Shown here one piece after another: positions 33,129 to 43,240 of a stretch of DNA of 64,000 nt. The stretch is from Colwellia psychrerythraea 34H (GTDB lineage: Bacteria > Pseudomonadota > Gammaproteobacteria > Enterobacterales > Alteromonadaceae): NCBI RefSeq assembly GCF_000012325.1, contig NC_003910.7, positions 744,001-808,000 on the forward strand, read 5' to 3'. A model generated the notes under the pieces. It searched no databases and was not told the DNA's origin. It worked only from the letters and a program-made list of their open reading frames with translations. How positions within the stretch are numbered: position 1 is the first letter of the stretch; each line of letters begins with the position of its first letter. Made by a program: the position numbers and the translations under genes.

Positions 33129-35114
33129 ATGAATTTACTTAATAATTTAGTGTTTAAACAAAAATTAATTTTACTTGTGTTGATACCCCTCTTAGCCACA
33201 CTGTATTTTAGTTTAAACAATTTAAATTCCTTAACTTCAAAACAAGGGCAGCTTGAAGAAATTCATGACTTGATTACGCTAACAGTTGCTAATAATGCAC
33301 TTGTTCATGAGTTACAAAAAGAGCGTGGTGCCACTGCTGTTTATCTAGGTAGTAAAGGTGAAAATTTTTCTTACGAGTTAAAAGAACAACGAAAACTTAC
33401 CGATAAAGCTCACACACTCTTAAATGCAAAGTTAAAAGTTTTCTCATCTGAGAATGACAAAGTAAATAATATTATCTTAACGGTTAAAAATGGTTTGTTA
33501 AAATTAGACAGGATTAGAGCTCGTTCTGATGAACTCTCAATTTCACTCAATGATGCTATTGGTTACTACACAACTCAAAACCATGAAATGCTTAGCTTAG
33601 CAGAGTTCTTTTCAACGATTAGTCCAACAGAAACAGTCAGTAACGCCATTGGGTATTATGTTCTTTTAGAAGCTAAAGAGCGGGCTGGTATAGAGCGGGC
33701 TGTTGCTAGTGGTGGTTTTGCCATGGATAAGTTCACACAAGCGGCTTTCCAAAAATTTACTAGCTTAGTGGCTTTACAAGATAGTTATTTAGAACAATTC
33801 AGCGCTAAAGCATCATCTAATACCATAAACGCTTATAAAAACAGCTTAAATAGTAATGCTGTAATTGAAGTTAATAGAATGAGAAACGTGGCAGTATCGG
33901 TTGGTCAAGCTGGTCCTTTCAATATTGATGCGAGTGTATGGTTTAAAAGCGCGACAGGACGAATTAATTTACTAAAAGATATTGAGAATCTCGTTGCTGA
34001 TGAGTTCATTACTGACATAGATAAACTGCTTCATGAAGCAAGTAGAGGAGTCAGTATTAATTTAATTATTATTATAATAACGTTCATTATGACTATTTTT
34101 ATTGTCTACGTTATTTTGACAAATTTAATTAAGCAATTGAATGAGATTTCAGTAACGATGGAAAAAGTCACTGAACATAATGACTTAACGGTACAGGCAG
34201 GTGTTTTTAGTACGGATGAATTGGGTAACATTGCCAAAGGCTTAAATAAAACACTTAGCACCTTTTCTAATGCCATCACCGAAATAAAAAGTAGTAGCAT
34301 TTCTCTCGCCGCTTCGGCACAACAATCATCTGTCATTGTGAATAATAACGTAGATAGTTTACAACAGCAGCGTGATGAAACCGCTCAAGTTGCTACTGCA
34401 ATAGAGGAAATGTCAGCAACGGTACAAGAAGTCTCTCGTAATGCCAATGAGGCGATGTCATCAACGCATCAAGTAAATACTCAAGCAATAGAGAGCCAAA
34501 CTGTTGTAGGCAACTCATTAGAAGCAATCAATAATTTAGCGACAGAAGTGTCGGAAATAGGCACGCTTATATCAGGACTGCACTCTACAACGTCAAATAT
34601 ATCAAATGTTATTGATGTTATAAAAGGTATTGCGGATCAAACTAACTTACTTGCCCTAAATGCAGCAATAGAAGCAGCAAGGGCAGGAGAGCAAGGGCGA
34701 GGCTTTGCCGTAGTGGCAGATGAAGTTAGGACCTTAGCTCAACGTACTCAAGACTCCACTATTGAAATTGAAGAAATTATCAATCAATTGCAAAGCGAAG
34801 CCAGCAATGCAAATACTATGGTGGCTGGTACCCAAAAACGTGCGGATGAAAGTATTGATGGTGCTCATCAAATTGAATTATCACTGACAAGTATCGTAAC
34901 GGCAGTATCGGATATAAACCTGATGATCGAACAAATTGCTACTGCAGCAGAAGAACAAGTTAGCGTCACGGAAGATATCAATAAAAATGTTAATGATATA
35001 GATAAGAAGTCTTCTGAAATAACATCGGGAGCACAAGATGTATCTCTGGCAGCTAGTGAGCAAGTAGAGATTGCTAATACGCTTGAAAGTCTGGCAGCAA
35101 AGTTTGTGGTATAG
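33129..35114 (+). CDS. Methyl-accepting chemotaxis protein with NIT sensor domain
   Basis: A 661-residue chemoreceptor from the ATG at 33129; an upstream in-frame GTG at 33066 is less likely because the ATG has an AAGGAT ribosome site and is followed directly by the first membrane helix (about 12-30). The periplasmic part contains the nitrate/nitrite-sensing (NIT) pattern [20 protein letters not shown] and [13 protein letters not shown] second helix lies near 307-330, then a HAMP domain and a cytoplasmic signalling domain with the conserved tip [20 protein letters not shown]. It would report to CheA/CheW. Its place next to gltBD fits nitrogen sensing, but that link is inference. Confidence 0.9.
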
Positions 35115-35732
35115 GTAAGTAGTGCAAATAAAATTTGCTTAGGAGAGAACCATTAACTTACTAAGTATTGGTAGTGGTTTTATCCCTAATGCCAGTATAA
35201 AGTGATTTTAAGTCAATCGAGTAAGCGTTAGAACGATCTCACTTTATCGTTACTGTGACTTATAATGAATTAATAATTATGAGGAAAAGTAACGCACATT
35301 TAAAATGAAATCACTAATAGTTTGTCATTTATTAATGGTAAGTTATTAGTGGATTTCTTCTATAACATCCTCATCAGTGCATAAAAACTCAAATATTTTT
35401 TCATTACTATCTTATCTATTATTCGATTCTTTATGGTTGAAGGTAGAAGTGAATTCGTTAAAAGGGGGTAATGAGTGAAATTAACGAATAGAGAGCTAAA
35501 GTTAACCGCTTATTAAAACAGTAAAATCATAAAAATTTATTTAGATATGTTGTTATCCTCAGATGATATATTTCGTTAATATACTCAATTCCCATTCAAC
35601 TAATTAGTCTTATTTCACTTGTAAATCATAATAATCAACAGTGACATATTCATTTATTGGAAAATAAAATCAAGTATGTTATAAGTGTTTTTGGGGTTTT
35701 ATTTATTAATAACAAAGAATTAAGTTTATTAT
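35115..35732. other. Intergenic region left of the TIR operon
   Basis: 618 bp without a gene. It holds a diverged dispersed-repeat copy (35187-35268), a large imperfect hairpin with arms at 35307-35319 and 35344-35357, and a 9-bp inverted repeat ATTCGTTAA (35453-35461) / TTAACGAAT (35481-35489). The promoter of the downstream operon should be near 35640-35730; I see no strong -35/-10 pair. Confidence 0.5.
35187..35268 (+). repeat. Diverged partial copy of the dispersed MITE-like repeat
   Basis: About 80 bp align to the central part of the 52056 element: AATGCC-GTATAAAGT-ATTTTAA, ATCGA-GAAGCG-like and TATCGTTACTGTGACTTATAA, the last being close to the 23085 copy (reverse complement). No terminal repeats remain. 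Confidence 0.65.
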
Positions 35733-37535
35733 ATGCGAACGGACTGTACGGGTAATATTCCATTTATTTTAGGAGTAACTGGGCATCGTGATTTATTCAC
35801 ATCTACTGAAAACTCACCTGAAGTGCTTAAAGGTCAAATAAGACAGGCACTCTCTTTTTGGCAAAAAAAAATTGGCGCTAATACTCCTCTTTGGTTATTA
35901 ACGGGTTTAGCAGAAGGTGCCGATTTACTTGTAGCAGAAACAGTATTAGCACTGCAAAGTGAGGGTGAAAATATACTATTACTTGCTTGTTTGCCTATGC
36001 CAGAATCAGCGTTTAGAAAAGACTTCGTTAATTCAGATGCGTTATCGACCTATACCAATATACTCGAGCGCATAACAAAAAGTGATAATAAGCTTTTTGA
36101 GTTAAAAAACCCACTTTCATCTAGAGAGTTTGAAATTGCAATTAATGACAATGAATTTGGAGCGCTGCGTAACGCTTTATATTTGAATCAAAGTCTTTTT
36201 GTTGCTAAATATTGTAATGCTTTATTGGCTTTATGGGATGGACACCAAAGTAAAGGTGCCGGTGGCAGTGCCGATGCAGTGCAATACAAACTTGGTAATA
36301 CACCTTCTTGGCCAGATAATATTATTGTTGATAAAAATCTATTGCCAGCCTCTGATTTTGACGGTCAAGTTAGCGGTGTTGTGCACCATATCCTTGTGCC
36401 TCGAAAGACAGACTCGTCGAAGCTGACGGAATTAACCGAATTTACGTCAATAGAAGTTGGCATTGGTAAACTTTATTCTTCAGTAGGGCAAACGAAGGGT
36501 AAAAATATACTAAATGATCTCATAGTGCATGAGTTTCAGTTAATGCTCGATGAAATGACGTTTTATAACCAAATAGCGCAAAATCATCCTGTTAAATCGA
36601 ACATTCAAAGTGATGGATTGAGTAGTACTAATGCCATTTTTGAAAAATCTGATGCCATTGCTATTGCTAATCAATCTAAATATAGAAATATAGTTAAAGC
36701 GTTTTTTAGCATCATCACCCCAGGTTTTATTGCTTATGAGCTTGCGGGTAACTACATCAACGAACTGAGCGGTGTGTACATACTTATTGTTGTTTTACTC
36801 GCTATGTTAGGTAGTGGGTTACTTATTAAATATGTGAGAAAAAATAATCCTAAATGGCAATATCAATTAGCTAGAGGGGTCGCTGAAACAATTCGAATTA
36901 GAGAGTTTCTAAATCTCGCTGATGTAGCGCCGACTGCAGAGCCATTAATTCCAAGGCGTTATCGTGAAAATTTACCCTTGTTAAATCATGTTATTCAACT
37001 TACAGAAATCCAGTGGTGGGACAAAAACTATCAAAGTAGTCCTGAGTCTATTAAAAGTATTTGGCTAGATGAACAAGTGAAGTTTTTAGACAGTAGACTT
37101 GTATTATCTGCCAATTCAGTCAGTGAACTATTATATAAACGGCCACGATACGCTGCTCATTTATGCAGTAAAATTGCATCCTTTAGTTTTTATACTGCAG
37201 TGGTGTTTGGTCTTATTTTATTGATGAATTTGAGTCTATTTTATGTTGTCGGTTTTGATTTTTTCAGTTCATTTAACGGCGCACTAATGTACATAGTGCA
37301 ATATGGATTGATGCTAGCGGGTATCGTTGTGCTATGGAGTGAAATTGCAGGATATGAGTCCACTACTTTAGGTTATAGCAGTCTCAAAACTTTATACGAG
37401 CGTGCGACAACACTGTTTGAAGAAACACCGGACAAAAGCAGTAAGAAAATGTTACTTGAGTTAGCTAAAGAAGCTGTATTTGAACACGTCACTTGGACAC
37501 GTTCAGAAATGGCTAGCGACTTGAAAGAAAGATAA
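35733..37535 (+). CDS. SLOG-like nucleotide-binding domain fused to a four-helix membrane (SLATT-like) effector region
   Basis: A 600-residue protein, first gene of a three-gene operon. The N-terminal ~200 residues look like a SLOG (Rossmann-like) domain: GVTGHRDL (14-21), LLTGLAEGADLLVAE (about 54-68), a hydrophobic strand ending ALLALWDG and a glycine-rich KGAGGSAD. SLOG domains bind nucleotides and sense signals made by TIR enzymes in Thoeris. The C-terminal half has helices near 318-336, 348-368, 482-503 and 516-537, with LARGVAETIRIREFLNLA between pairs and an amphipathic end, resembling SLATT two-helix effectors. It has no catalytic residues I recognise. Inference: a nucleotide-gated membrane-disrupting effector. 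The ribosome site is weak. Confidence 0.7.
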   Translation: MRTDCTGNIPFILGVTGHRDLFTSTENSPEVLKGQIRQALSFWQKKIGANTPLWLLTGLAEGADLLVAETVLALQSEGENILLLACLPMPESAFRKDFVNSDALSTYTNILERITKSDNKLFELKNPLSSREFEIAINDNEFGALRNALYLNQSLFVAKYCNALLALWDGHQSKGAGGSADAVQYKLGNTPSWPDNIIVDKNLLPASDFDGQVSGVVHHILVPRKTDSSKLTELTEFTSIEVGIGKLYSSVGQTKGKNILNDLIVHEFQLMLDEMTFYNQIAQNHPVKSNIQSDGLSSTNAIFEKSDAIAIANQSKYRNIVKAFFSIITPGFIAYELAGNYINELSGVYILIVVLLAMLGSGLLIKYVRKNNPKWQYQLARGVAETIRIREFLNLADVAPTAEPLIPRRYRENLPLLNHVIQLTEIQWWDKNYQSSPESIKSIWLDEQVKFLDSRLVLSANSVSELLYKRPRYAAHLCSKIASFSFYTAVVFGLILLMNLSLFYVVGFDFFSSFNGALMYIVQYGLMLAGIVVLWSEIAGYESTTLGYSSLKTLYERATTLFEETPDKSSKKMLLELAKEAVFEHVTWTRSEMASDLKER

Positions 37536-37567
37536 AAATTTGAATTAAGTAGTAAGGAAAACTAATT

Positions 37568-39835
37568 ATGACAACAGAAAAAGTAAGCTTTTATCAAACA
37601 CTGACTGATGATGAAATTGCTAAAGAGATTGTGAGGGAAGAACGTTTAGATAATAAATATAGATTAGAGTGGGGTGTAGATTCAAGCTTTACTATTTACT
37701 GTGATGATGAAGATGAACAAAAAACGTATACCCGCCACCTTGAATCCATAATTGGTGTACTACCACTAAAACATCCTAAAAATGAAGGCTGTTTTGTGAG
37801 CATAGGCTTAGAAAATAGTTTGCAAATATCCTTAAATCAGGGACCTCATCTGAAAACATTGATCGGCCACGACGAACGAGTTCTCGGCTTGATTGAACTT
37901 GATGACGGTAACTTGGTTTCTGCTAGTACGGATGGTTTTCTTCGCTTTTGGAATACTAAAAATGGGAAGATGCTTAGTGAAATAGAAACCTCACTTGAAT
38001 CATTAGAACAAGTTAAGTTTTTTCTCTATCACGATATCGTGGCAATCAAAGAAAATAACTCTGTGAGTATTTGGAAATTTTCAGGTGAACAATTAGTACA
38101 GCTCGAAGGTCAAAAAAAGCAACTGCAATCAGCTCATCAACTATCATCGGGCAACTGGCTAATCTGGACAGAAAATACTAAGCCAAGTCTATGGACAGGT
38201 GAAGGGAAATTAATTAAAACATTTTCTTTCTCCTTTCCTGTGTTCGGAGCATATTGTGAACTTGAATCGAAGCAACTACTAATTAAGCGAAGTGATTCGA
38301 TTATTTCATTGTTCGATGAAAACGGCACTTTACAAAGTGAACATCAAAACAATAAAGGTGTTGTCGACTTATTTGATCAATTAGCAAAAGGACTTCGAGA
38401 AACTGAGCAGTTTATAAGTAATAATCCAGATGTTAGCTACTTTCAGCACGCTAGAAATCTACTTGCCTCGAAAAAAAGCTTATTTCGTGCCCACGATGAG
38501 TTAGAAAAACAATCCTTAGATTTTGAAGATAATGCGACTGAACAAAAAGTTTGGAATTTCTTTAGCCGACCTATATTTGAAAAAATTAAAACGGCACTAA
38601 AATCAGTAATTAAAACCGCTCGCACTAAAGAGAAAGTACTCTTAACCTTGATTGAAGAGGGAGATACAAGAAAAACTCGTTATATATCCAAAAGAGGTAC
38701 TTTTGGTGCCATGGCCTGGGTTTTCATTGTCTTAGCATCTACTGCTGCAGGAGCGGGTTGGTTTTTATTACAACAACCAGGCTTACTTGAATCTATGGTG
38801 TCAGAGAACAGAGATTTATTGAGTATTGCTCAACAAAAACCGGAATTCCTTGTCTACATACCTGCGGTATTATTGTCTGTTTTTTGGTTGTTATTTTGGT
38901 CTAAATCACGAAAGCATAATAAAAATGCTAACCGTGAAAGCAACAATTTAGCCGTGCTAAATGTGTTGTTACCAGGATATTATCAACTGATTGAGAATAT
39001 TAAGAGCTATCGAAAAAAATTAACAAGTCAAATACCTGTATTACAGGAAGGTAGTAGAGATCTGTATCAAGGACAATTCATTCAAGCCCATATTGATGAA
39101 TTAATCAGTGGTAAAATTCAAGAATTGGCGATGAATGAATGTGGGTTAGATAAAGACGATATTATTTATAAAGATCAAGAACCAATTATTTTACCAACAT
39201 TTAGTTTAATTCAAGACAAAGAAAGACGCTCACAAGTTGCGAGTAAACTTGTTTTTGAAAATGAATATTCATTCTGGCCGATCAAAGGCGGTACGCTAGT
39301 AAGTGCTGTGCAATTTATTCAGTACACTTTCTTAACAAAAGATAAAATTGATGTGTTCACTACTTATTACGATTTTATAACTAATAAAGCAGTCGGTAAG
39401 GAAGCAAATGCCTTTTATTACAAAGACGTTACCAATATTGCGAAAAAAGAAGTGGATCGTGATGATTTCTGGGAAGATAAAAGTAAAGACATCTCAGCAA
39501 CTGAAATTGTTTTATCAGTTGCTAGTGGAGAGAAGATTCGCTTAACTATTTTAAATGAAGAAAGTTTGTCAAAAATACACCAACAGACTAAAGATGTTGA
39601 AACGATCAGCCCTGAAATGTTGATGCAAAAATTAGAAGATGAACGTATAAGCATTGAAGCTGATGACGACTTATCTGATGAAGAAAAAGAAGATGAGTTA
39701 AGAGTTGTTGATGGTCGTATAGCCGAAGCGAAAACAAGCTTATTTGAATTAGATTCTAGTCAAACAAGTAATAAAGCTGATGAAGCGATTAAGAATATTC
39801 GCAATCAATTACAGCAACACAAAAAGGAAAGTTAA
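37568..39835 (+). CDS. WD40-like propeller / two-helix membrane protein of the TIR operon
   Basis: A 755-residue protein of unknown function, 32 bp after the SLOG gene with an AAGGAAAA ribosome site. An N-terminal region of about 85 residues is followed by roughly five WD40-like blades (about 90-275); the first is clear (LIGHDERVLGLIELDDGNLVSASTDGFLRFWN), the others weaker. A helical stretch leads to two membrane helices near 378-400 and 427-445. The remainder, about 300 residues, is largely alpha/beta with an acidic coiled coil near 690-720 and a charged end; I do not recognise it. Propellers often bind partners, so this may be the sensor or scaffold for the TIR and SLOG proteins. Its stop overlaps the TIR start. 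Confidence 0.75.
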   Translation: MTTEKVSFYQTLTDDEIAKEIVREERLDNKYRLEWGVDSSFTIYCDDEDEQKTYTRHLESIIGVLPLKHPKNEGCFVSIGLENSLQISLNQGPHLKTLIGHDERVLGLIELDDGNLVSASTDGFLRFWNTKNGKMLSEIETSLESLEQVKFFLYHDIVAIKENNSVSIWKFSGEQLVQLEGQKKQLQSAHQLSSGNWLIWTENTKPSLWTGEGKLIKTFSFSFPVFGAYCELESKQLLIKRSDSIISLFDENGTLQSEHQNNKGVVDLFDQLAKGLRETEQFISNNPDVSYFQHARNLLASKKSLFRAHDELEKQSLDFEDNATEQKVWNFFSRPIFEKIKTALKSVIKTARTKEKVLLTLIEEGDTRKTRYISKRGTFGAMAWVFIVLASTAAGAGWFLLQQPGLLESMVSENRDLLSIAQQKPEFLVYIPAVLLSVFWLLFWSKSRKHNKNANRESNNLAVLNVLLPGYYQLIENIKSYRKKLTSQIPVLQEGSRDLYQGQFIQAHIDELISGKIQELAMNECGLDKDDIIYKDQEPIILPTFSLIQDKERRSQVASKLVFENEYSFWPIKGGTLVSAVQFIQYTFLTKDKIDVFTTYYDFITNKAVGKEANAFYYKDVTNIAKKEVDRDDFWEDKSKDISATEIVLSVASGEKIRLTILNEESLSKIHQQTKDVETISPEMLMQKLEDERISIEADDDLSDEEKEDELRVVDGRIAEAKTSLFELDSSQTSNKADEAIKNIRNQLQQHKKES

Positions 39836-40707
39836 TGAGCAAAGTATTTATCAGCTATAGCTCATCTGATAGACCTGCGGTAAAGCTATTGAAAGAGGCT
39901 TTAGAGCAACTTTCTTATGATGTTTGGTTTGATCAAGACGCTATATTACCCGGTGGTTATTACGCAAAAGATATTGCCACGGCGTTAAAAGATATTGATG
40001 TTTTTGTACTGATGACAAGCGCCAATTCAATAGGGGATAAAGTAAATAATATTGCGGGATCCAGTGAGGTGGCTAAAGAAGTCGTTTTAGCACAAAGTTC
40101 TTCTGCGGTTATTATTCCCGTTAAATTAGATGATTGTTGGATGGAAACAACCACTCATGATGAGTTTACTTATTTATTAGCCCGAACGCAGTGGCTGGAT
40201 GCGGGTTACTGCGACTCACCGACTGATTTTATGGATGTTGCCAAACGGATTGATAGTGCCTTAGTTTCGGGTAACTTTAAGTTTAATCATGATACAACAC
40301 TTGATGAGATCGATAAGTTATTGAAGCAAGGCTTCTTTGGGCAAGCAACATCACGAATGAATGCTAATGCATTCCCTGATATTGCGAGTGATAGAGTTGT
40401 ATTGATTAATTCAATACTTGCACTGTCAGCACGGCCTATATCAAGTCTAAGTAAGATAACGGTTGATAATTTAGTACGCGATCTTGTTCAGATTCGTAAT
40501 GAAAGCGTTAGACCTGCAGCTCTTTATTTACAGGGTGCTTTGTCAACATTCTATTACCAAACGAATGCTGTCTATGATCCAACAGGTGGGTTAGTTGCTC
40601 TTAAAAATGAAGCTTCGACTCTTGGTCGATTAAAAGCTAAATATGTAATGTCTATTGCGCACTTATTACCATCAGTTAACCAATACTCTTTACAGTGGTC
40701 GAAATAA
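39835..40707 (+). CDS. TIR-domain protein (probable NAD-consuming signalling enzyme)
   Basis: A 290-residue soluble protein. The first 140 residues are a TIR domain: KVFISYSSSDRPAVKLLKEALEQ, then SYDVWFDQDAILPGG, DIDVFVLMTSANS, and the helix SSEVAKEVVLAQSS with Glu82 in the position of the catalytic glutamate of NAD-cleaving TIRs. Bacterial TIRs in immune operons make cyclic ADP-ribose variants or destroy NAD. Residues 145-290 are helical and unrecognised. The ATG overlaps the stop of the previous gene (TAATG), so the three proteins are made together. Whether it makes a signal for the SLOG protein is inference. Confidence 0.85.
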   Translation: MSKVFISYSSSDRPAVKLLKEALEQLSYDVWFDQDAILPGGYYAKDIATALKDIDVFVLMTSANSIGDKVNNIAGSSEVAKEVVLAQSSSAVIIPVKLDDCWMETTTHDEFTYLLARTQWLDAGYCDSPTDFMDVAKRIDSALVSGNFKFNHDTTLDEIDKLLKQGFFGQATSRMNANAFPDIASDRVVLINSILALSARPISSLSKITVDNLVRDLVQIRNESVRPAALYLQGALSTFYYQTNAVYDPTGGLVALKNEASTLGRLKAKYVMSIAHLLPSVNQYSLQWSK

Positions 40708-40772
40708 TCGACTCTTTGTAGGGCTGATGTCTGGAATAAAATGAGCTCAAATTTATTTTGTGCAGTTAAATT

Positions 40773-40806
40773 GGTATCAGTTAAGGTTATAGCCTTAACT
40801 GATACC
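40773..40806. terminator. Strong hairpin downstream of the TIR operon
   Basis: A perfect 14-bp stem, GGTATCAGTTAAGG and its complement, around a 6-base loop. Only three T follow it, so it may act with Rho or be bidirectional. Its right arm overlaps the end of a reversed gene relic. Confidence 0.6.
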
Positions 40807-40989
40807 TTTGTAGTAGGTAGTTTTTGCGAGTCTTAGCATTGTAAGGCTTACGCCAGCGCCAAGTGTTATTGCTTCTCCTATATAATCAACGGCCGCATCT
40901 CCTTCTCCTCTTAATACATGTAATTTGGCTAATAAGATTGTTGAAGGTAAATGGGCCGGCTCTCCTTGTAATGCTTTTTCATAGCTGTC
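40795..40989 (-). pseudogene. Relic of a PrsT-like TPR gene
   Basis: On the minus strand a 65-codon frame reads SYEKALQGEPAHLPSTILLAKL, then LRGEGDAAVDYIGEAITLGAG and SLTMLRLA before a stop. This aligns with residues around 40-100 of the PrsT-like TPR protein encoded at 56061-58835 (pattern PxHLxSxILLAxL...AA...A..LGA), but is not the same gene. It has stops upstream and no start, so it is a fragment. Confidence 0.55.
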
Positions 40990-41101
40990 GGATTATTGAG
41001 CGATAACTAGAGTCGGAAAAATTATTAAAAACTAATTTAAAAATATGCGATAAAGGTATATCTAGTTTGTGTTATTGTTTTTTATTTTTTAAATCTGCGA
41101 T
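40990..41101. other. Gap before the AEC transporter
   Basis: AT-rich, no gene seen; it holds the transporter's promoter. Confidence 0.3.
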
Positions 41102-41113
41102 GTGAAGGATAAT

Positions 41114-42040
41114 GTGAATATATTTTTAATACTGTTAGTCAAAATTTTCCCACTATACATCAATGTAGGTTTAGGCTTTTTTGCGACAAAATATTTGGAT
41201 GTTCAAAGACATAGTGTTGCTGCTCTTCTTATTTATATCATAGGACCTATTGTTGTATTGTCTGCAACAATGAGTGTAGAAATTAATGCCAGTGTTGCCT
41301 TTTTACCCATTTTTTTATACATCTTCGGTTCTATCATTGCCTTCGCTACTTTGTTCATTTTTGGAAAAAATTGGAATGACCCAACAGGGAATATTTTAGC
41401 TTTTTCAAGTGGAACGGGAAACACTGGTTACTTTGGAATACCGCTTGCTCTGATCTTTTTCGATACAGCTTTAGCGAATATATATATATTTACGGTGTTA
41501 GCTTCTCTTTTATATGAAAATACTACAGGATTTTATGTCACTGCAAAGGGCAATTTCACCGCTAAACAAAGTCTTGTTAAGATAATTAAACTGCCAATTC
41601 TGCATGCTTTTATTGTAGGAATTACATTGAACATCATGGGAATAAAGCTTCCAGAAGAGTTAACATTTTACTCTGATCAATTTAAGAGCTCCTATGGGAT
41701 TCTAGGAATGATGATGTTGGGGATGGGGCTTCATGGTTTTAACAAAAGTGAAGACTTGGATGTTAAATTTATCAAAATATCTTTTATCATCAAATTCATT
41801 TTTTGGCCGGCTTCAATTTTGGCGCTTATTTACCTAGATAAAACATTTATTCAATTACTTAACGAAGATTTATACAAGGTACTGATTCTGTTTTCAATTG
41901 TACCACTTGCAGGCAATACCGTATCACTTGCTGTCTTATTAAATGCTAAACCAGAGAAAGCGAGCTTATCGGTGTTTTTAAGTACCGTACTATCCATTTT
42001 ATTCATACCATTAGCATTGTATTTATACGGTGGTTTTTAA
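41114..42040 (+). CDS. AEC-family transporter (auxin efflux carrier-like)
   Basis: A 308-residue inner-membrane protein with about ten hydrophobic helices in two halves, each with the family pattern; the first half ends LAFSSGTGNTGYFGIPLALIFF, the hallmark discontinuous region of AEC carriers, and the end LILFSIVPLAGNTVSLAVLLNAKPEKASLSVFLST is the matching second-half motif. Members move organic anions such as malate. The start is taken as GTG at 41114, with AAGGA at 41105-41109; a GTG at 41102 would add four residues. Confidence 0.85.
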   Translation: MNIFLILLVKIFPLYINVGLGFFATKYLDVQRHSVAALLIYIIGPIVVLSATMSVEINASVAFLPIFLYIFGSIIAFATLFIFGKNWNDPTGNILAFSSGTGNTGYFGIPLALIFFDTALANIYIFTVLASLLYENTTGFYVTAKGNFTAKQSLVKIIKLPILHAFIVGITLNIMGIKLPEELTFYSDQFKSSYGILGMMMLGMGLHGFNKSEDLDVKFIKISFIIKFIFWPASILALIYLDKTFIQLLNEDLYKVLILFSIVPLAGNTVSLAVLLNAKPEKASLSVFLSTVLSILFIPLALYLYGGF

Positions 42041-42205
42041 ATTTTTCAAGGTTCCTCAAATTAAAACTGCTCATGGGATCAGCTAAGTTAAGATTATTAT
42101 TTTCAGTTTTACCCTAACACCAACAATTATATATTAATCGACGGGTGTAACAGGGAAGGTATTGCTGTAAATTAGTCACTTGCTTACTCTCTTATACGAA
42201 TCACC

Positions 42206-43240
42206 ATGACATCAATTCGCTTGACTCAATACTCACACGGCGCAGGCTGTGGCTGTAAAATTTCTCCATCGGTACTTGATGTGATGCTAAAGTCATCACT
42301 TGCTTTACCCGTGAATGACGCACTTTTAGTGGGTAATAGTACTAAAGACGATGCGGCCGTTTTCGATATTGGTAATGATCAAGGTGTGATTTCAACCACT
42401 GATTTCTTTATGCCCATTGTTGATGACCCAACTGACTTTGGTAAAATTGCTGCCTGTAATGCCATCAGCGATATTTATGCCATGGGCGGAAAACCGATCA
42501 TGGCGATAGCTATTTTGGGCTGGCCAGTCAATCTTTTAGCACCTGAAATTGCCCAACAAGTACTTGATGGCGCTAGAGCTATCTGTGCTGAAGCGGGTAT
42601 CCCGTTAGCAGGCGGTCATTCCATTGATGCGCCAGAGCCTATCTTTGGTTTAGCGGTTACGGGACTAATTAATAATGCGCACATTAAGCGAAATAATACT
42701 GCAGAGGTTGGCGATCTTCTGTACTTAACCAAGCCATTAGGTATTGGCATTATGACCACGGCTGAAAAACAAGGGAAATTGTTACCTGAACATGCGCAAC
42801 TAGCACCACAAGCGATGAAGACCCTAAATGTCATTGGACAGAAGTTTGCAGAACTAGAGGTAGTTACTGCTATGACCGATGTAACCGGTTTTGCACTATT
42901 AGGACACCTTTTAGAAATGTGTCAGGGCAGTGGGGTTGCTGCAGTTATTGATTTTGAGCAAGTACCGCGTCTTGATTTCGTCAATGATTACATTGATCAA
43001 GGTTGCGTACCTGGTGGTTGTGAGAGAAACTTTATCAGCTATGGCGAGCATGTTGGGCCGTTAAGCCCCAAACAAAAAATACTTTTGTGTGACCCTCAAA
43101 CCAGTGGTGGTTTACTTGTGGCAGTGAAACCACAAGGCAAAGAAGCTTTTGAAGCGTTATGCCAAGAGAATGGTCTTAATCTACAACCTATTGGTGAACT
43201 CGTGGCGGCAACTTCGCCTACAGTGAGTTTGTTGTCATGA
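42206..43240 (+). CDS. selD: Selenophosphate synthetase
   Basis: A 344-residue enzyme making selenophosphate from selenide and ATP. The active-site region GAGCGCKI has Cys15 (not selenocysteine) and Lys18. Other family features are [28 protein letters not shown] (Mg-ATP ligands), [18 protein letters not shown] and [15 protein letters not shown]. It overlaps mnmH by four bases (ATGA), so selenophosphate is made with its user. No selA, selB or selC is present here, so the visible use is in tRNA selenouridine. Confidence 0.95.

Follow-up and report, generated by a model that had tools for sequence, protein, structure and literature searches.

The window analysed here is a stretch of 64,000 nucleotides from Colwellia psychrerythraea 34H (contig NC_003910.7, positions 744,001 to 808,000; the genome is a single contig of 5.37 Mb). 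It contains a cassette of three genes, here termed A, B and C, all on the plus strand. Gene A (35733–37535) encodes a protein of 600 amino acid residues (aa) that combines a putative SLOG-type sensor domain with two SLATT-like hairpins of two transmembrane helices (2TM) each. Gene B (37568–39835, 755 aa) encodes a protein with a WD40-like propeller, a pair of membrane helices and a C-terminal domain that matches no family, and gene C (39835–40707, 290 aa) encodes a TIR protein. A gap of 32 bp separates A from B, and B overlaps C by one base. This arrangement, noticed before in a reading made from the letters of the DNA (hereafter the sequence-only reading), was confirmed by the open reading frames.

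The order A-B-C recurs in 13 genomes of Colwellia, Marinomonas, Ferrimonas and others, the copy of C. ponticola sharing 45/33/26% identity with that of the window. None of the 13 copies has an internal stop; their A-B gaps range from 12 to 93 bp and their B-C junctions from -20 to +81 bp. When the window is compared with three Colwellia relatives, the ratio of non-synonymous to synonymous substitution rates (dN/dS) is 0.06–0.11 for each of A, B and C, and all three genes are under purifying selection. With the same order in 13 genomes and such dN/dS values, the arrangement is more than chance. The co-occurrence expected for a candidate system of three parts was hence found across genomes, and A is not restricted to the A-B-C set.

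Protein C affiliates with the Pfam family TIR_2 over residues 4–123 (3.9e-17, 63.3 bits, cutoff 28), followed by about 150 C-terminal residues. The glutamate at the catalytic position, Glu82 (codon 40078–40080), is kept in 13/13 A-B-C copies, and its alignment column holds Glu in all 15 TIRs aligned, including TIRs of other loci. The TIR domain with a catalytic-position Glu82 pointed out by the sequence-only reading is therefore well founded.

The SLOG-type domain of protein A spans residues ~10–219 (35760–36389). Its motifs GVTGHRD, GLAEGADLL and GAGG are mostly invariant in alignments of homologues. In the window copy of A no family of Pfam or NCBIfam reaches its cutoff, and SLOG is not matched directly. 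An indirect match comes from the homologue in L023 (25% identity over A residues 11–403), which scores against the DprA family with 3.9e-6 and 26.6 bits, below the cutoff of 29.6; we take this family to be a member of the SLOG superfamily. A YpsA SLOG match at 0.045 appeared in one of 11 A members. Averaged hydropathy predicts hydrophobic helices at residues 320–342, 341–369, 480–513 and 516–536, which form two hairpins. Each of 15 A-family proteins has three to four helices at the same two places, and three of the 15 carry an extra hydrophobic stretch close to the N-terminus. Hairpin 1 (residues 320–369; 36690–36839) lies within a weak match to SLATT_3 at 301–388 (NCBIfam; 0.0026, 17.8 bits, cutoff 45), which recurs in 9/11 A members. 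Hairpin 2 (residues 480–536; 37170–37340) corresponds to the region with which the Caballeronia homologue (L088) passes SLATT_1 (45.3, cutoff 41). Among the seven SLOG-membrane homologues compared with NCBIfam, another (L085) comes near this cutoff with 38.4 in two stretches, four have weak SLATT_3 matches and one has none. By the hydropathy prediction, protein A thus has two copies of the two-helix membrane hairpin looked for in SLATT proteins. A SLATT_3 search gave no match in 79 genomes of the family nor in 14 controls; it is uninformative because the controls also lacked a match. Of the SLOG domain fused to a four-helix membrane region described by the sequence-only reading, the motifs and helices stood, the helices being better described as two SLATT-like hairpins, and a direct SLOG family match was not obtained.

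Protein B carries its WD40-like propeller at residues ~40–262 (37685–38353). It matches the WD40 repeats of PDB 2ymu with 5.1e-40 (phmmer), and WD40-type models of Pfam match down to 1.3e-6, all under their cutoffs. Two membrane helices were predicted by averaged hydropathy at residues 377–407 and 423–447 (residues 377–447; 38696–38908). The most conserved part of the C-terminal domain in the alignment covers residues ~580–665 (39305–39562). This C-terminal region had no family match, and a profile search of PDB gave nothing usable; judged from its strand pattern only, the domain is perhaps PH-like. Matches to Sec8_N and XAP5 were below cutoff and taken as chance. Compared with the other proteins of loci of at least 5 kb, a set in which the choice of open reading frames missed some overlapped genes, the C-terminal profile gave nothing convincing; its best match outside B (0.02) was to a DUF4062-STAND protein (L027). 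The earlier description of B, a propeller protein with two membrane helices whose C-terminal domain has no known family, held.

To view the unit from B, genome contigs were scanned with an alignment of the C-terminal part of B, which yielded 11 loci. Gene C lies immediately 3' of B in 11/11 and gene A immediately 5' of B in 10/11. The exception is a locus of Alishewanella (L044), where a 266-aa gene without Pfam family precedes B. Three Vibrio plasmid records also contain B and C, and a tblastn search of A against all plasmids returned no Vibrio record. A TPR-S/TRAFs-binding gene follows B-C in the two Vibrio records that reach that far (L015, scanned; L016, annotated). In the Vibrio coralliilyticus plasmids of L016 (8010–10178) and L017 (7920–10218), B is split into two frames; L015 has an intact B, and in none of the three records is the TIR gene disrupted. 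Gene B is rare, with 4/295 genomes of the family at E<=1e-12 and 1/369 genomes of the class, the latter being that of the window itself. Among seven representatives without near-duplicates, pairwise identities correlate most closely for B and C (r 0.87, Mantel p 0.0006), followed by A and C (0.57, p 0.009) and by A and B (0.45, p 0.04). Genes B and C are the most tightly linked in their travel; A is tied to them more loosely, which agrees with the loci that have no A. Because of this tighter co-evolution and the occurrence of B-C pairs without A, B is more likely to be paired with the TIR protein than with A. The sequence-only proposal that B detects the trigger or holds the complex is refined accordingly to that of a TIR partner.

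The cassette occupies an interval (35115–41101) between a chemotaxis-receptor-like gene ending at 35114 and a permease-like gene starting at 41102; both names come from reading of the sequence. At the corresponding site of a related Colwellia (G007), the upstream gene ends at 2201 and the downstream gene starts at 2397, with 195 bp and no cassette between them, and a search at E<=0.001 found no A anywhere in that genome. Such a site implies that A-B-C was gained or lost as a whole. The flanking genes of distant A-B-C copies differ. That the cassette is a piece of a larger operon was considered and rejected, since flanks differ among distant loci and the empty site sits within a single intergenic region. 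The stretch 35641–35732 is likely the promoter and leader of A, with a sigma70-like site GTGACA-18-TAAAAT at 35641–35670 (plus strand). Promoter-like sites in the region (14 found, 22.6 expected from shuffles) are not above shuffles, so that conservation is the better argument: four Colwellia genomes are near-identical from ~35648 to A, and the DNA farther upstream diverges. A terminator-like hairpin with a 15-bp stem lies 3' of gene C (40773–40806, plus strand); its sequence differs in three close Colwellia relatives. Another hairpin, of 19 pairs (35311–35352), is located in the 600-bp gap separating the upstream gene from A. Just past the cassette, a minus-strand open stretch of 59 codons (40813–40989) resembles, by reading, a TPR-repeat fragment and is possibly the remnant of a neighbour gene. 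No Rfam family reached its gathering score over 34500–42500.

The neighbourhoods of the A family were collected in four chromosomal surveys (99, 394, 340 and 299 genomes, partly overlapping and with different E limits) that gave 25 distinct loci. In 18/25, a raw count in which close Colwellia copies are not independent, A lies near B-C or near another TIR or DUF4062 gene. Eight loci contain B and C (G000, G038, G032, G026, G012, G534, G636, G675), six have another TIR nearby (G203, G716 with two such genes, G934, G1223, G052, G688) and the others a DUF4062 gene (G093, G115, G1060 together with WD40, and a second copy in G000). On two contigs shorter than 5 kb, G973 with an MscS channel gene and G1249, neither B-C nor TIR/DUF4062 was seen. 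The order-wide search alone (394 genomes, E<=1e-30) found eight A loci in seven genomes, four with B and C and four near a different TIR or DUF4062 gene. In L080 (6886–10395), an A homologue immediately follows a TIR gene of 593 aa in the same orientation; this TIR gene, overlapped by a longer reverse frame, was found with a wider TIR profile over all frames. A second homologue of A in the genome of the window (37% identity; L027, 3410–10179) is convergent with the DUF4062-STAND gene mentioned above, and a short open reading frame between the two resembles a transposase by reading. In L021 (10124–17875), genes for DUF4062-STAND, TrkA_N (potassium-channel-type) and an A homologue stand in a row, a possible variant with a separate channel.

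Defence genes were sought in the flanks of nine loci: seven with A-B-C (window, L037, L038, L040, L042, L043, L054) and two with B-C (L044, L015). PADLOC was run on the 104 flanking proteins of 120–700 aa; the statements that follow cover the best 25 of 153 matching families, after which ten proteins were checked singly. Among the matches listed, defence genes were confirmed beside at least two of the nine loci, and to this extent the closeness to defence genes considered in the sequence-only reading was found. The C. ponticola copy (L043) is preceded, within ~4 kb, by genes for a methyltransferase and a restriction enzyme, both of type II, and by a PDC-M11B candidate; in the Pseudomonadales copy (L042), 243 bp separate A from a CARF/Csx1-like gene upstream. 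The protein behind the GajB/DRT-type matches beside the Marinomonas copy is a UvrD/Rep-like helicase and was not scored as a defence gene.

Two plasmids offer parallels. On the mobilizable Caballeronia plasmid pSBC2-4 (L088 2530–9930, L086 908–4062), genes for SLOG-DUF4231/SLATT, TIR and nSTAND1-WD40 proteins are consecutive on one strand. This triad resembles A-B-C in having three adjacent parts of the same kinds on one strand and differs from it in the order (A, TIR, WD40) and in the STAND NTPase of its WD40 protein, which gave no match beyond chance to the middle and C-terminal parts of B. A few kb from the triad, another gene encodes a TPR-S domain and also has a cyclase match below cutoff. 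On the Bacillus subtilis plasmid pBS72 (L087 4629–6483), a row of genes encodes a TIR of the ThsB type, a caspase and a free-standing protein of 162 aa, the last sharing 28% identity with the SLOG part of A (2e-6). As far as the available text of PMC12847820 describes it, type IV Thoeris resembles the pBS72 unit, in which the SLOG-like gene is separate. Both gene rows tie the SLOG class of A to TIR signalling.

Among the known systems, Thoeris is the nearest in logic. Its types I, II and IV pair the TIR protein ThsB with an effector, SIR2-SLOG, TM-macro (TM, transmembrane) or caspase, respectively. As far as sequence can tell, A-B-C likewise encodes, within one operon, a TIR enzyme together with a distinct effector that has a putative nucleotide-sensing domain. 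Unlike in Thoeris, the SLOG-type domain of A is joined to tandem SLATT-like hairpins and not to SIR2, and the cassette has a third conserved protein, B. Sequence models do not recognise A-B-C as Thoeris: C carries a TIR with the catalytic-position Glu but matches ThsB models only weakly, and A matches no Thoeris model. Systems of the TIR-SLATT and SLOG-SLATT kind were reportedly first predicted as conflict systems in a founding paper of 2015 by Aravind and colleagues, and we know of no experiment on SLOG-SLATT. Animal TRPM2-type channels also have a domain of the SLOG class fused to membrane helices; unlike these, A has SLATT-like hairpins and not a voltage-channel fold. The available text of two papers reports TIR-SLATT gene neighbourhoods in firmicute phages (PMC9503650) and SLATT genes with TIR-bearing GTPase systems (PMC7159879), both as predictions, and mentions no propeller-membrane partner. 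The latter source also describes beta-propeller MoxR-vWA ternary conflict systems, whose third component has a propeller and a membrane segment as B does; unlike in those systems, no MoxR or vWA gene was seen in the A-B-C operon. The logic linking TIR, SLOG and SLATT is thus already in print as a prediction (PMC9503650, PMC7159879, in the text available). Searches of the open-licence PMC literature, in the text available, showed no description of the three-gene unit; both protein B and the cassette with its three fixed parts seem to be new.

We consider it probable, at roughly 60%, that A-B-C works like Thoeris, as a signalling operon of the immune type that is self-contained and moves horizontally. 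According to the available text of the cited papers, ThsB requires its catalytic Glu to stimulate ThsA, whose SLOG domain binds 3' cyclic ADP-ribose (3'cADPR; PMC10022894), type I Thoeris senses via SLOG and type II disrupts the membrane (PMC12948488, PMC12847820), and SLATT is predicted to be an effector of membrane permeability regulated by ADP-ribose (PMC9503650). Mapped onto the operon, the roles reported in PMC10022894, PMC12948488 and PMC9503650 suggest that B switches C, that C signals and that A senses the signal and breaches the membrane. Protein B would hold the TIR enzyme near the membrane and, upon a trigger for which its propeller may serve as sensor or scaffold, let C cleave nicotinamide adenine dinucleotide (NAD+). 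An ADP-ribose-type messenger made by C would then bind to the SLOG domain of A, whose two SLATT-type hairpins would assemble and permeabilise the inner membrane, so that the infected cell stops or dies ahead of phage release. The enzyme product, the SLOG ligand, the pore, the trigger, the phage target and the control of C by B are parts of this model that we infer, and the same applies to B as sensor of the trigger. Tentatively, and well short of the confidence given to the Thoeris-like operon as such, the cassette may represent a new type of TIR immunity in which a membrane-anchored propeller protein, with its own C-terminal domain, switches the TIR and a SLOG-gated tandem-SLATT channel is opened by the messenger.

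Several observations weigh against the Thoeris-like immune operon. Protein C matches ThsB models only weakly: its best PADLOC match has 1e-4 and 19.5 bits, NCBIfam ThcB4 gives 28.9 bits at a cutoff of 220, matches to retron TIR models are also weak, and Pfam ThsB_TIR does not match at E<=1. Neither A nor B has a PADLOC match, A has no Thoeris match in NCBIfam, and a profile of A matches no PDB chain, including the solved SLOG domains of ThsA; these results agree with the sequence-only remark that no named system with these parts was known. Among the matches listed (25 of 153 families), no defence gene was confirmed near 7/9 loci. A and the C-terminal part of B had no match in 50,697 phage records, nor in IMG/VR by a pattern scan. 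The B-C pairs without A in Vibrio and Alishewanella count on the same side. Finally, six deep A homologues (22–28% identity to A) adjoin an Ion_trans voltage-type channel gene in 6/6 loci (L023 6935–9708, L024 8147–10920, L025 7309–10219, L026 6899–9731, L028 8833–11624 and L029 10203–12923); three of these channel genes were scanned and contain Pfam Ion_trans, and the other three are 54–97% identical to one of those, the gene of L023. For five of the six (G030 twice, G010, G087 twice), which make up five of the 25 surveyed A loci, no TIR/DUF4062 gene was found by profile in the stretch examined. With this deep branch of the A family beside ion-channel genes, a reading as defence only needs caution. 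Separately, the A homologue of L079 adjoins an MscS channel gene with a cyclic-nucleotide domain.

Other explanations distribute the roles differently. Protein C could itself kill by destroying NAD+ once freed by B, while A would bind ADP-ribose products as a sensor or brake, or tether the complex to the membrane, and no pore would be involved. The invariant glutamate would suit such a killer, as would the Vibrio plasmids and Alishewanella, in which B-C can be a functional pair without A; yet the membrane region of A resembles the SLATT families, predicted in the available text of PMC9503650 to be signal-regulated membrane effectors, and the helices of A keep their two places in each of the 15 A-family proteins. 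We regard this explanation as unlikely.

Animal TRPM2 is gated by ADP-ribose, a comparison that leads to a unit for stress or ion homeostasis, in which B would sense the membrane or osmotic state, C make a cyclic ADP-ribose signal and A gate ions. The named hosts are mostly marine, and the six channel neighbours and the MscS neighbour of A homologues point the same way. However, A homologue and channel gene are on one strand in L028 only and on opposite strands in the other 5/6 loci, so that the two share no transcript there. The patchy spread (A in 7/394 genomes of the order at E<=1e-30, B in 1/369 of the class), the empty site in the related Colwellia and the restriction and CARF neighbours also speak against a homeostatic role, and we hold it to be quite improbable. 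That the genes co-travel with the TIR as a non-enzymatic scaffold for another role, e.g. competitor killing or plasmid exclusion, would agree with the relatives of B-C or A on plasmids; with Glu82 in 13/13 copies and Glu in 15/15 aligned TIRs, we give it hardly any weight.

If the messenger does open a SLOG-gated tandem-SLATT channel, as tentatively proposed above, bacteria would possess a pore gated by a ligand through the sensor class of animal TRPM2, in a family whose other members adjoin true ion channels. To our knowledge, the prediction of SLATT as a nucleotide-gated effector has seen little direct test. With a conserved catalytic residue and with sensor, enzyme and membrane parts adjacent, this compact operon is a clean object for testing it, and with protein B, TIR signalling would gain a control element of a new kind.

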